25,863 nt of DNA from a virus. Location of the stretch: IMG/VR virus record IMGVR_UViG_3300044716_000416, positions 1 to 25,863 of that record. One strand, 5' to 3'. The notes beneath the pieces were generated by a model that worked only from the letters and a program-made list of their open reading frames with translations, did no database searches and had not been told where the DNA came from. The position numbers and the translations under genes are program-made. Positions within the stretch are counted from its first letter, which is position 1; every line of letters starts with the position of its first letter. Positions 5,486 to 25,830 of this stretch are shown here, piece after piece.

Positions 5486-5722
5486 GTGCGATACGTCGCA
5501 AAACAGGGGTTCATGTATGGCCGGGCGCGGGTGGCGCCTGGTCATATCATCGAACTTTCACCAGGCGCGGCGGAGTCCCTACTCCGTCGCGGTTGGCTGG
5601 AAGCGGCGGGTGGGTCGGTCCTCCCGGCGGCCCCACCCGCCGAACTTGAAAAGCCTTATGGCAAGCGTGGGCGGCCACCTAAATCCTATTACAAAGACCG
5701 AATGATGAGCGCGGCGGAATGA
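5486..5722 (+). CDS. small basic head-region protein with an AT-hook-like tail
   Basis: A 78-residue protein of unknown family between capsid and portal. The chosen start is GTG 5486, 8 bases after a TAAGG sequence overlapping the capsid stop; ATG 5513 (69 residues) is the alternative. The middle (VAPGHIIELSPGAAESLLRR) resembles small head proteins that sit next to capsid genes. The C-terminus reads KPYGKRGRPPKSYYKDRM, with RGRPPK close to an AT-hook core (RGRP), so contact with DNA during packaging is possible. That is inference from one short motif. It overlaps the portal gene by ATGA, which supports it being translated. Confidence 0.7.
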   Translation: MRYVAKQGFMYGRARVAPGHIIELSPGAAESLLRRGWLEAAGGSVLPAAPPAELEKPYGKRGRPPKSYYKDRMMSAAE

Positions 5723-7098
5723 ACATCCTGAACAAAGCCATGTCGGTCTTCACTAGGACGAAGGCCGTTCCGAACGGCGGAAATCTTTTCTTCCCCCGTG
5801 AAAGCGCAATGACCAACTGGTGGCAGCGTGGTTTTGACAAGCCGTCCGCCCGCGAAGCTATGACGAATTCCGCCGTCTATGCGTGCGTGTCGGTCATTTC
5901 CCAGGAAATTGCCAAGTTCGACATCCGCCACTGGAAACAGAACCCAGACGGTGGCCGTGAACTTGTGAACGGAACGGTTGCGGCGGTTCTTCGCAATCCG
6001 AATGAATACCAGACTCGTTCAGACTTTTGGCTTTACATGATGGGCAACTTGCTCCTGGGCGGGAACGCCTACGCCATTGCTGAACGTGATGGACGTGGCG
6101 CGGTGGTTGCGTTGCACCCGCGCCCCCATGGTTCCATTGCGCCCTATGTCGCGCCTGACGGTTCTGTGTTTTATCAGGTGGGCGGAAACGCGGCCAACGA
6201 ACTGACGCCCGACCTGTTGGAAAACATGGTCCCGGCGCGTGATGTCCTTCACATCCGCCTTCATTGCCTAAGCCATTGGTTGATTGGCGTGTCCCCCCTG
6301 GTTGCCTGTGCGGCGGCCCTTGCTGGCGCGGACGCCATCCAGAAAAACACGGCGGCGTTCTTCACGAACATGTCCCGCCCTGGCGGCATCCTGAAGACGC
6401 CAAAGCCCTTGAACCCTGACGCGGCGGCCCGACTGAAGGCCCAATGGGAACAAGGCACGTCCGCCAACTTCATGGGCAGAACCGCCGTTTTGGACAATGA
6501 CGTGTCCTGGCAACCCCTGACCATTTCCGCCCAGGACGCGGCCCTGGTGGAACAATACAAAATGGGCGTCCATGACGTGGCCCGCGTTTATCGCGTGCCA
6601 CTGTGGATGATTGGCGACCTGGAAAAGGCGTCATTCCACAACGTCGAAACACTCCAGCGTTCGTTCGTTGTGTCCACCCTTGGTTTCTACCTGGAACACC
6701 TGGAAGACGCCCTGGAAAAGTTCTTCCGCCTGGGCGCCACTGAATATGTGGAATTTGACGTTGAAGGCGGACTCATGCGGGCCGAAACAAAGGACCGCTT
6801 TGACGCCTACGCCAAGGCCCTTCAGTCCGGCATCCTGACGCCCAATGAAGTCCGCAACATTGAAGACCTACCGCCGATTGACGGCGGTGACCGCGCCTAC
6901 ATGCAAGCGCAAATGCAACCCATCGACCTGACCGCCGAAATGGTGGAGGCCGAACTTGAAAACCTGAAGAACCCACCCGAACCACCCCCGGCGCCCGCCC
7001 TACCGGCACCGGCACCGAAGGACGAACCGCCCGCCAAATCCTATTCCACGGACGATGTGCGGGCGGCGGTTCGGGCCATGATGAGGGCCACCGCATGA
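5719..7098 (+). CDS. phage portal protein, HK97 family
   Basis: A 459-residue portal protein, the dodecameric ring at one capsid vertex through which DNA enters and leaves. Typical HK97-portal features are NSAVYACVSVISQEIAKF near residue 50, the GNLLLGGNAYAIAERDGRG segment, the GVSPLVACAAAL helix and ARVYRVPLWMIGDLEKASF near 290, the conserved region before the wing/stem. The C-terminal 60 residues are proline-rich and low-complexity (PPEPPPAPALPAPAP) before a short helix. Family length is normal. It lies after the major capsid gene rather than before the protease, and overlaps the genes on both sides by ATGA. Confidence 0.95.
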   Translation: MNILNKAMSVFTRTKAVPNGGNLFFPRESAMTNWWQRGFDKPSAREAMTNSAVYACVSVISQEIAKFDIRHWKQNPDGGRELVNGTVAAVLRNPNEYQTRSDFWLYMMGNLLLGGNAYAIAERDGRGAVVALHPRPHGSIAPYVAPDGSVFYQVGGNAANELTPDLLENMVPARDVLHIRLHCLSHWLIGVSPLVACAAALAGADAIQKNTAAFFTNMSRPGGILKTPKPLNPDAAARLKAQWEQGTSANFMGRTAVLDNDVSWQPLTISAQDAALVEQYKMGVHDVARVYRVPLWMIGDLEKASFHNVETLQRSFVVSTLGFYLEHLEDALEKFFRLGATEYVEFDVEGGLMRAETKDRFDAYAKALQSGILTPNEVRNIEDLPPIDGGDRAYMQAQMQPIDLTAEMVEAELENLKNPPEPPPAPALPAPAPKDEPPAKSYSTDDVRAAVRAMMRATA

Positions 7099-7958
7099 CC
7101 CACGAACTTCCCCAGTTGATTGCGGCGGGCATCGCGGAGGCCACCGGCTTGATTGAAGCGCGGGTGGCCGAACAGTTGGCCGAACTTCAAAAGCGTGTTG
7201 ACGCCCACCAGGTCACCATCCTGGAAGAAAGGGCGGCCCATGCCGAACGTCTGGAGTCTGTTCGCCAGGAAGCGCGGGCCGAAGTCCAACGCGAAATCCA
7301 ACGTGCCGTTGACCAGGCCGTCCAGGACATCCGTGGCGCCGCCCTGGCGTTGCCGGTGCCGACCGACTGGCGGGAACGGACCTACTACCAGGGCGAGGCC
7401 GTCCACCATCGTGGCGGCACCTGGGTGGCCACCAGGAAGACGGCGGACGAACCGCGTGTTGGTGGTGACTGGACCCTGTTGGCGGACGGCGTGGCCGAAG
7501 TCACAAAGGGTGGTGACAGTGTGTTCATCATCCGCACATCGGAAACCGTCACCGAACTGGCCGACATGCGCGGCGCCCAGGGCGAAGGGTTCCGCGTCCG
7601 TGGCCTTTACCAGGCGGGCGAAACCTATTCCAAGGGTGATCTAGTCCTGGAAAACGGTTCCAGGTTCGTGGCCCTAAAGGATGACCCTGGCGCCTTCCCT
7701 GGCGCCGGTTGGGAATTGTTCGTCCAACGTGGTTCCAAGGGCACCAAGGGCGAACAGGGACCGCGTGGTGAAAAGGGACTGGACGGCGCCCACGGCCCCA
7801 GTCTGTTGGAAGATTTGCGGGCCTGGCGTGACGGGCGCCTGATCGAGTCCGGTTCCCTGGTCCACCATGACGGCAAACTGTTTGTGGCCCTGGATGACAC
7901 CACGTCACCGCCTGGCACGGGTTCGGCCTGGCTCCGCGTGAAAGGGTTGGGCGAATGA
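7095..7958 (+). CDS. head-region protein with coiled coil, three carbohydrate-binding-like modules and a collagen-like stretch
   Basis: A 287-residue mosaic protein. Residues 10-80 form a charged heptad-like helix, a probable oligomerising coiled coil. Three short modules follow, at about 97-131, 171-210 and 250-283. Each has the pattern (Y)xxGExVxxxGxxWVAxxxxxxxxPxxxxxW, resembling chitinase-type family 5/12 carbohydrate-binding modules. Between modules two and three, residues 213-234 contain Gly-X-Y triplets (GSKGTKGEQGPRGEKGLDG), a short collagen-like rod. Lying between portal and head-tail connector, it could be a capsid or neck decoration fibre that binds host or environmental polysaccharide. 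That is inference; a virion role is not shown by sequence alone. Start is ATG 7095, overlapping the portal stop. Confidence 0.85.
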   Translation: MTHELPQLIAAGIAEATGLIEARVAEQLAELQKRVDAHQVTILEERAAHAERLESVRQEARAEVQREIQRAVDQAVQDIRGAALALPVPTDWRERTYYQGEAVHHRGGTWVATRKTADEPRVGGDWTLLADGVAEVTKGGDSVFIIRTSETVTELADMRGAQGEGFRVRGLYQAGETYSKGDLVLENGSRFVALKDDPGAFPGAGWELFVQRGSKGTKGEQGPRGEKGLDGAHGPSLLEDLRAWRDGRLIESGSLVHHDGKLFVALDDTTSPPGTGSAWLRVKGLGE

Positions 7959-8518
7959 ACACCTTGTTTCCGGCCATCCGTGACCTGACCAACGTTCGGC
8001 GCCGCCGCCTGTCCTATGACATCGGCGCGGCGGCGGACATGTTGTCCCCCCTGGTGAAGGCCCACCTTCGCCTGGCGACGGACGCGGAGGACCAGTTGGT
8101 CAAGACCTACACGGCGGCGGCCATCGGCATCATTGAAGAGGCGGCGGGCATCGCTATTGCCAACCAAGTCCATGAATGGACCATTTCCTGTTCCGAACCC
8201 GGCACCCTTCAGGTCTTCCCTGGTCCGATCGTCACCGCCACGGTGGACGGCCAGGACGCGGACGTGATCCACACAGGCGCCGCCCATAACCCCTACGGGT
8301 TGATTGCCGTTGGCGTCCTGGACGCGGCGCCGGTCAACTTCACGGCGGGCGCCACGGTGGTTGATGACATTGACCCCGTGATCCTTCAGGCCGTCCTGGT
8401 GACGGCGGCCCACCTTTACGAAAACCGCGAGTTCGCGGCGCCTGGTGCCTTCGGGCGCATACCCATGGCGGCGGAAATGTTGCTGGCGCCCTACCGAAAC
8501 GTGGTCCTGGGTGTTTGA
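7955..8518 (+). CDS. head-tail connector protein (gp6-like)
   Basis: A 187-residue connector that stacks below the portal ring. The core LVKAHLRLATDAEDQLVKTY (about 32-51) followed by a helix running to AGIAI is the standard start of the gp6-like head-tail connector family. The C-terminal part has the usual final helix (LVTAAHLYENREF) that gives these rings their helical bundle. The protein has about 30 extra basic N-terminal residues ahead of the core. It overlaps the previous gene by ATGA and is followed by the head closure gene, the normal order. Confidence 0.88.
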   Translation: MNTLFPAIRDLTNVRRRRLSYDIGAAADMLSPLVKAHLRLATDAEDQLVKTYTAAAIGIIEEAAGIAIANQVHEWTISCSEPGTLQVFPGPIVTATVDGQDADVIHTGAAHNPYGLIAVGVLDAAPVNFTAGATVVDDIDPVILQAVLVTAAHLYENREFAAPGAFGRIPMAAEMLLAPYRNVVLGV

Positions 8519-20696: not shown

Positions 20697-21482
20697 ATGC
20701 CCCAAAGCGATTATGTGGTTGACAACGGCACCGGCGCGTCCGTGCGGCGTGACATTAACGTCCACCTGTTGGCGATTGCCACCAACAACAGTGGGCCGGT
20801 TGAACCGGCGACTCCATACCCTGGCCAGTTGTGGTTGGACACGTCCTACGGCGTGAACGGGTTTGTGAAGTTGCGCGACCAGGCCAACAGCGCCTGGATT
20901 GAATTGTTCGACGCGGACGCGGGTGGTTTCTATCCAAAGTCAGGTGGAGAAATCACCGGCGAAGTCATCGTGAAAGACCCGAACGGTTGGTCAGGCGTGA
21001 AGTTGCAGAACACCGCCACCGGCAACGAAGTGTGGTTGCACGGCATGGGCACCAGTCTTGAGACCGTCAATGAATTCCGCCTGGCGTTCATCACCCAGGC
21101 CATGAAGGACGCGGGCCTGGATCGTGGAGTCATCGGATCGCCTTTCGTCTTCAACATGCAAACGGGCGTTGCGACGGCAACGGGCGACTGGGTGACCACA
21201 TCGGACCGGCGCGTGAAGGAAAACATCCGCGCCATCCCTGACGCCCTGGAACGCGTCTTGGCGATGGCGGGCGTGTTCTTCACCAGGAAGGACACGGCCA
21301 TCCCTGGCGCGGGCGTCATCGCCCAGGACATTGAAAAAGTGGCGCCTGAACTAGTCACCGAAACGGACGGCATCAAGGGCGTGAACTATGGCGGCCTGGG
21401 CGGCTATTTCATCGAGGCCATCCGCGTCCTGAACGAACGCATTGAAAGCCTGGAAGCCCAGTTGAAGGACGCCAAGGCATGA
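20697..21482 (+). CDS. tail fibre with C-terminal S74 self-cleaving chaperone domain
   Basis: A 261-residue fibre. The N-terminal part includes PGQLWLDTS (about 42-50), a motif seen in fibre and tip-attachment proteins, and a GGEITGEVIVKDPNG fibre repeat. From about residue 167 (TTSDRRVKENI) the protein is an S74/intramolecular chaperone domain: VFFTRKD, GAGVIAQDIEKVAPELV, KGVNYGGL and a final coiled coil (AIRVLNERIESLEAQL). In this family the chaperone trims itself off just before a conserved serine, here Ser169, after helping three fibre chains fold. The mature fibre would therefore be about 168 residues. GGAGG lies 8 bases before ATG 20697; the gene overlaps adhesin B by ATGA. Confidence 0.92.
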   Translation: MPQSDYVVDNGTGASVRRDINVHLLAIATNNSGPVEPATPYPGQLWLDTSYGVNGFVKLRDQANSAWIELFDADAGGFYPKSGGEITGEVIVKDPNGWSGVKLQNTATGNEVWLHGMGTSLETVNEFRLAFITQAMKDAGLDRGVIGSPFVFNMQTGVATATGDWVTTSDRRVKENIRAIPDALERVLAMAGVFFTRKDTAIPGAGVIAQDIEKVAPELVTETDGIKGVNYGGLGGYFIEAIRVLNERIESLEAQLKDAKA

Positions 21483-22180
21483 CCGACAAGGCCGACGCCA
21501 GGCAAATTCCCACAGGTGCCATCGGTTTGAATGACATCGTGGCGGAATTTTCCGGCACGTTGCCCCATGGCCTTACAGAGTATACTCGCGGCGGTGCCCA
21601 TGTGCCGTCCAACGCCTGGGGAAACATCCCCAGTTCGGCGCCGATTGGGATTGCCCAGTTCCGTGGCGCCGTTCGTGAGTTTGTCTATGAACAGACGGGC
21701 GACTGGGTGGACCCTGGTGACCTTCGGTCCGTGTTCAATTCCACCTGGTTTGACCCAGGCACAACGCCAGTCCGCTTCCGTTTCATCGTTCGCGGGCGCA
21801 TCGCCGCCAGCACGCCTGACCGCCACGCCCTTTATGTCGGCGCCTTTCCGGCGGGTTCGACGGTGACCATCGAAAACCGTGGCGAAATCTACGGCGCGGG
21901 CGGGCGGCCAAACGGCGGTTGGGGTTCAGGTTGCATTGCGGCCCATCACGATGGGTTTGAGACGGTCATTGAAAACTTCGGGCGGATTTGGGCGGGTGGC
22001 GGCGCCGGTGGATATGGCGGCGCGGGCGGCGGCGGCTATTACCAAAACACCTACACGGTGGAAGTCCAACTGGGCGCCGGAACGGGCGCATCCACAAGCG
22101 CCTTCGGCAGTGCGGCTTGCACAGTGTCTTGCACAACACCATTCGGCGGGAGCGCCTGGTGCGCGGGGAGTTGTTATTGA
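21479..22180 (+). CDS. glycine-rich tail adhesin B, N-terminal frame
   Basis: A 233-residue adhesin, a diverged copy of the first half of adhesin A. It shares an opening motif (PTGAIGLNDIVAEFSG), a beta-helix-like strand (AGSTVTIENRGEIYGAGG, then ETVIENFGRIWAGG) and a polyglycine run (AGGGAGGYGGAGGGG). It stops inside the cysteine-rich segment (CTVSCTT ... WCAGSCY) where adhesin A reads on. The rest of the adhesin lies in the overlapping -1 frame starting at 22180. Either the two parts are made separately and assemble, or a one-base change has split one gene. Confidence 0.8.
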   Translation: MTDKADARQIPTGAIGLNDIVAEFSGTLPHGLTEYTRGGAHVPSNAWGNIPSSAPIGIAQFRGAVREFVYEQTGDWVDPGDLRSVFNSTWFDPGTTPVRFRFIVRGRIAASTPDRHALYVGAFPAGSTVTIENRGEIYGAGGRPNGGWGSGCIAAHHDGFETVIENFGRIWAGGGAGGYGGAGGGGYYQNTYTVEVQLGAGTGASTSAFGSAACTVSCTTPFGGSAWCAGSCY

Positions 22181-25425: not shown

Positions 25426-25830
25426 ATGAAACTGGAAGAAATCATTTTGAGCGTGTCGCGGGTTCTTCACGAACGCGGCCAGGTCTATGGCGACGTGGCG
25501 CCCCTGTTTGAAAAGGCGGCGGCCATTGCGTCTTTACGTTCACACGGGCGGACGTTTTCGGCCTTTGACGTGGCCGTGGTTCTGCAAAGCCTGAAGGACG
25601 CCAGGGCGGCCCTGACCGGCCATGACCATTGGGACTCGATCCTGGACGGCCTGGGCTACGCCATCATTGCGGCGGCCCTGTCCGGCGCCCATCCTGACGT
25701 GCCGTCCACAGCGGAAGTGGCGGCGAAGTTTTCGCCCCGGCGCCGGTTGGATGAAGCGCAATTCCAGGACGCCCTGTCCCAGGCCGTGACCGCCATCAAC
25801 GAACCTGAAGCGGTGCCAGCCCATGGTTGA
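25426..25830 (+). CDS. DUF6378-like phage protein of unknown function
   Basis: A 134-residue protein with GGGAGG about 7 bases before ATG 25426. Its core, HERGQVYGDVAPLFEKAAAIAS, then FSAFDVAVVLQSLKDARAALTG and HDHWDSILDGLGYAIIAAAL, resembles the DUF6378 phage family: a YGD start, a DVA..L..LK.AR helix and an H-D...D.LGYA end. The conserved acidic and histidine residues recall nucleotide pyrophosphohydrolase-like helical bundles, but that link is weak. The 73-base gap before it (25353-25425) holds a short GTGGG...CCCAC inverted repeat without a T-run and no other signal I can name. Confidence 0.75.
   Translation: MKLEEIILSVSRVLHERGQVYGDVAPLFEKAAAIASLRSHGRTFSAFDVAVVLQSLKDARAALTGHDHWDSILDGLGYAIIAAALSGAHPDVPSTAEVAAKFSPRRRLDEAQFQDALSQAVTAINEPEAVPAHG

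Follow-up and report, generated by a model that had tools for sequence, protein, structure and literature searches.

A conserved and mislabelled phage protein family encoded between portal and head-tail adaptor, probably linked to the portal

The window analyzed here is the whole 25,863-nucleotide viral stretch IMGVR_UViG_3300044716_000416. Judged from its sequence, the 287-residue protein encoded at positions 7095-7958 (+) is a divergent member of a portal-adjacent family, PHROG 1289. The gene is real, and the family is conserved and mislabelled. A link of the protein to the portal has good support and is considered likely, while its location inside the capsid is moderately supported, the balance being about even. 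The reading as a whole, a portal-linked rod carried on the C-terminal tails of the portal inside the head, with modules that are not lectins, is held with moderate confidence.

The open reading frame starts with ATG and overlaps its neighbor by an ATGA at both ends. The preceding gene encodes a portal protein (Phage_portal in Pfam) and the following one the head-tail adaptor Ad1, followed by a head completion protein, in agreement with the position between portal and head-tail connector given in the preliminary description. The gene order in the window is terminase, protease, major capsid protein, portal, 7095-7958, adaptor, head completion, tail terminator, tail genes and gpJ, with tail-fibre genes 3' of gpJ at 20697-22180. 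Towards its ends, the window also holds a DNA methyltransferase-like gene directly 5' of the terminase region (494-1156; phrog_67, E 5e-45) and, past the lysis region near the end of the fragment, a gene for a small protein similar to phrog_474, which is labelled phosphofructokinase (25426-25830; E 6e-10). The features discussed below are:

5719-7098 (+), portal protein, partner by position and putative binding partner (PF04860, E 2.2e-87; ATGA overlap)
6970-7041 (+), portal C-terminal linker, Pro/Ala-rich (sequence)
7042-7095 (+), portal terminal helix YSTDDVRAAVRAMMRATA, putative dock for the rod protein (portals with versus without the gene)
7095-7958 (+), portal-linked rod protein (probable link), 287 residues (open reading frame; phrog_1289, phrog_16748 and phrog_2271 relatives; family alignment)
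7107-7343 (+), long helix at the N terminus (residues 5-83) that is a probable coiled coil (AlphaFold2; 11/3 periodicity)
7365-7487 (+), CBM5/12-fold module 1, residues 91-131, with Arg-Lys in place of the aromatic pair (Pfam, AlphaFold2, Foldseek, alignment)
7488-7538 (+), inter-module beta-hairpin, residues 132-148 (AlphaFold2; position matches in the family alignment)
7587-7730 (+), CBM5/12-fold module 2, residues 165-212, without the aromatic pair (Pfam, AlphaFold2, Foldseek)
7731-7802 (+), eight Gly-X-Y triplets, residues 213-236 (Pfam, shuffles; low confidence here in the single-chain model)
7812-7943 (+), CBM5/12-fold module 3, residues 240-283, unseen in aligned relatives (AlphaFold2, shuffle scores)
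7955-8518 (+), head-tail adaptor Ad1, ATGA overlap with the rod gene (phrog_40, E 1.1e-16)

In the AlphaFold2 model, built from 29 aligned sequences, residues 5-83 form one helix with pLDDT mostly above 90. Its hydrophobic residues recur with a period of 11/3 (hendecad), which supports the coiled coil proposed earlier. C-terminal of the helix, three small beta modules are predicted at about residues 91-131, 165-212 and 240-283. The whole protein scores 30.5 bits against CBM_5_12 in Pfam (cut-off 26.2), and the relatives that were scanned score below this cut-off. A Foldseek search with the model gave a superposition of 0.9 Å over 37 residues on the three-stranded CBM5 of Serratia chitinase B (ChiB). 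Module 3, located C-terminal to the Gly-X-Y stretch, reached 20.8 bits, while none of the 1,890 shuffles that were scored exceeded 9.8. Hence, the three carbohydrate-binding-like modules named in the preliminary description are upheld as a fold, and a different fold, which it had set beforehand as the outcome that would count against it, is not what the model predicts. The collagen-like rod described there is upheld in part: at least eight consecutive Gly-X-Y triplets occurred in none of 5,000 shuffles, but the Pfam Collagen score of 19.3 is below the cut-off of 27.2, so this is a short stretch and not a long rod. The expectation of a design other than the Ig-like Hoc type agrees with the search results, as neither Pfam nor the fold matches listed include anything Ig-like. 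Likewise, no match in the 287-residue protein was found to the PF04860 portal domain (Pfam), to fibritin or to a MuF domain (both Pfam and PHROGs), and NCBIfam contains no model for it. Weak Pfam matches to ApoLp-III, PrkA, EFP_N and TetR_C_35 were set aside as coiled-coil or low-complexity noise, as were PDB sequence matches to alpha-amylase and designed helical repeats.

The suggestion that the modules bind sugars found no support. In CBM5 domains, two adjacent surface aromatics (Trp-Trp or Tyr-Trp) bind chitin (PMC8449059). The window modules share the fold of the ChiB CBM5/12 and the CjLPMO10A CBM5, and modules 1 and 2 also their buried core Tyr and Trp, but the chitin-binding surface pair is absent: in module 1 Arg-Lys aligns to the Trp-Trp of chitinase B, and modules 2 and 3 are non-aromatic at this position. 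This is nearly family-wide: neither position of the pair is aromatic in 45 of the 46 sequences that could be scored for module 1, or in any of the 56 for module 2. With the canonical residues missing from the sequences, a lectin role of the modules is not supported; binding of another glycan through another surface is possible.

A direct search with the whole protein matched only a second, 10.4-kb contig, IMGVR_UViG_3300042544_001577, which carries identical copies of the rod and portal proteins (loci L002, L005 and L091), and bacterial genomes searched with the window portal gave no matches. As the direct searches were nearly empty, family alignments were used instead. The protein matches phrog_1289 (E 9.5e-5), phrog_16748 (E 2.7e-7) and also phrog_2271. 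Members of these groups, which are labelled 'portal protein' or unknown (e.g. phage JLK-2012 gp62 and Salmonella phage FSL SP-016 SP016_00155), share with it the genomic position, the helix at the N terminus, a rod and the core of two modules, whereas the window protein shows about 30% identity, lacks DGK-type helical repeats and carries an extra third module after the Gly-X-Y stretch. Reached through portal relatives and phage records, homologues were found at the same site in JLK-2012, FSL SP-016, PPompW phages, EBPR siphovirus 3 (gp5) and Stenotrophomonas phage SOVA965. The common core of the closest ones consists of module 1, the hairpin and module 2. Between the N-terminal helix and this core the rod is highly variable: it may contain helical repeats (DGKSVTxxDVxP...), a series of collagen-like triplets, or the two combined, and rod length ranges from 263 to 613 residues.

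Scans of IMG/VR returned 256 stretches encoding relatives. In the loci that were fetched, 170 core-domain open reading frames were analyzed, representing 142 distinct proteins in 38 groups at 80% identity. The portal lies directly upstream and the adaptor downstream in 111 of the 170; most of the others have one of the two adjacent and a contig end on the other side, 18 are fused to the portal, and only 2-3 lack both neighbors in the fetched stretch. A four-base overlap joins the gene to that of the portal in 90 loci, and 146 loci show one with the adaptor gene. Across the 170 frames, the two-module core hardly ever occurs away from the portal-adaptor site, and not among tail-fibre genes. In a portal-based survey the core gene followed 50 of 78 portals. 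The gene is accessory, as close relatives such as Mcat1 are without it and have the adaptor directly after the portal. PHROGs, PGAP and phage authors label the family 'portal protein', while the free protein has no portal domain; the label was probably inherited from fused forms. Homologous stretches are present in 1,243 of 5,426 complete E. coli genomes, with 'phage portal protein' in the records listed. The literature search yielded no earlier description of the family, nor did the cryo-EM papers that were checked yield such a neck or head protein.

The fused forms bear most directly on the location of the protein. In 11 other IMG/VR portals of the portal-based survey, which have 476-486 residues and come from Moraxellaceae-type phages (L181-L188, L190-L192), a single C-terminal module of the module-2 type is joined in frame behind a variable linker, the adaptor comes next, and a separate gene is absent; Moraxella phage Mcat9 (L258:2277-3716) is an annotated case. 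Between diverged pairs of fused portals, identity is 69% in the module, 65% in the portal body and 42% in the linker, and the dN of the module does not exceed that of the portal body. Two of these portals (L183 and L188) have diverged and carry near-identical modules, a pattern that suggests module exchange. In the model of a fused portal, which is HK97-like, a disordered linker precedes the module, and among solved structures the HK97 portal is the nearest (8cez, TM 0.80). In HK97-type portals the C termini point into the capsid interior. The portal crown lies exposed on the inner side of the capsid (PMC10359639), and in the JBD30 structure it lies inside the capsid (PMC11445458). A module conserved on the portal inside the capsid is hard to reconcile with a surface lectin, which makes the exposure on the virion surface assumed in the preliminary description doubtful. 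In 18 E. coli-type loci (e.g. L136, L113 and L004) the whole gene is fused to the portal, with reading frames of up to 893 residues. Where split and fused forms were compared, a single G sets them apart, the G-run being five long in the former and six in the latter, and the fused form keeps the internal ATG, from which the free protein may still be made. Since this explains the E. coli-type fusions, they were set aside as main evidence for an interior location, and the argument was based on the Moraxellaceae-type fusions instead. The G-run itself is a possible site of phase variation or slippage.

The tails of the portals provide a further line of evidence. Where the free gene follows, the portal closes with a linker, in many cases rich in Pro and Ala, and a short terminal helix, as in AAKAMLRGLLTK, QARMLALLIEKEL and, in the window portal, DDVRAAVRAMMRATA. 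The median tail length is 55 residues for portals with the gene versus 13-48 without, a difference that phylogeny confounds and for which the measure is rough in distant portals. In a comparison uncorrected for relatedness, 13 gene-less portals had shorter tails, a lower helix propensity at the end and no terminal helix. The terminal helix of the portal may therefore be the dock for the N-terminal helix of the rod protein. Genomic position, fusions and matching portal tails together support the link to the portal.

In the proposed arrangement, the N-terminal helix would dock onto the helix that ends the flexible portal tails, which would place rod and modules within the head, next to the portal crown. 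Acting as small protein-binding, or DNA-near, units rather than lectins, the modules might aid portal incorporation, prohead assembly or the way in which the DNA end is arranged. By way of the ATGA on either side, translational coupling would keep the rod protein in step with portal and adaptor. We put forward only tentatively, somewhat short of an even chance, that a CBM fold was recruited without its sugar site as an internal part of the phage DNA gate, in a rod held on or fused to the twelve flexible portal tails within the capsid, and that the family is a widespread, unnamed portal partner that more than one in five complete E. coli genomes carry under a wrong name.

Alternatively, the protein could be an external neck or collar fibre, a trimeric rod near the portal-adaptor junction with outward modules that bind host or mucus sugars. 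Rods, Gly-X-Y stretches and CBM-fold modules are common in phage fibres, and the best structural neighbors in Foldseek also include tail fibre modules of Agrobacterium phage 7-7-1, Milano and cyanophage A-1(L). Furthermore, in one lineage (L006, L012 and L013) two collagen-like genes and a gene for a small protein (phrog_2618) are inserted between portal and family gene (L006:4858-7330), one of the collagen-like genes ending in a putative fibre beta-helix; from its sequence this is a fibre cassette within the head operon, so that fibre genes can occupy this site. Because of this lineage and the fibre-like range of rod lengths, the external fibre is kept as the main rival. We nevertheless regard it as unlikely, as the canonical aromatics are missing from all modules, the core is practically confined to the portal-adaptor site, the portal-fused modules under selection would lie within the capsid, and the window phage has tail-fibre genes of its own after gpJ.

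Less probable still is a factor acting in assembly only, which would bind either the portal subunits or the capsid protein's scaffold domain while the prohead assembles and be lost or cleaved before the virion is completed. Gene order with the portal and the accessory distribution are compatible with it, and the HK97 scaffold, whose trimeric coiled-coil towers surround the portal wing (PMC10275583), would be a plausible coiled-coil partner; a portal-fused module, however, could leave only if cut by the prohead protease, a cleavage that is hypothetical. That a fibre gene landed beside the portal by chance and was kept for unrelated reasons, without portal contact, would fit the mobility of such modules among phage proteins but is very improbable given a position conserved across 38 groups, repeated fusion to the portal and matching portal tails.

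The probable portal-linked rod shares traits with several known accessory proteins. SPP1 gp12 also has a Gly-X-Y stretch in an accessory protein of the head region, but it is a 64-residue protein encoded beside the capsid gene, located on the outer capsid and without CBM modules (PMC6316719), compared with eight triplets and a sub-cut-off Collagen score here. Hoc, pb10 and N4 gp17 share the idea of a multimodular accessory head protein (PMC7602432); they are Ig-like, while the window protein has no Ig fold and is not assigned to the capsid surface. The phi29 head fibre gp8.5 is likewise a coiled-coil accessory head protein, but binds the outer capsid at quasi-3-fold sites (PMC7602432), and no sequence similarity to the window protein was detected. 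EPclA/B of EHEC combine a coiled coil with Gly-X-Y in E. coli prophages, but are tail fibres with PfN/PfC domains (PMC3368898), which are absent from the window protein (Pfam).

These findings correct the name under which the family appears in PHROGs, PGAP and phage records, and point to an unrecognised accessory component of the HK97-type portal vertex. The split, fused and single-module forms are natural variants for probing the function of the portal C-terminal tail.
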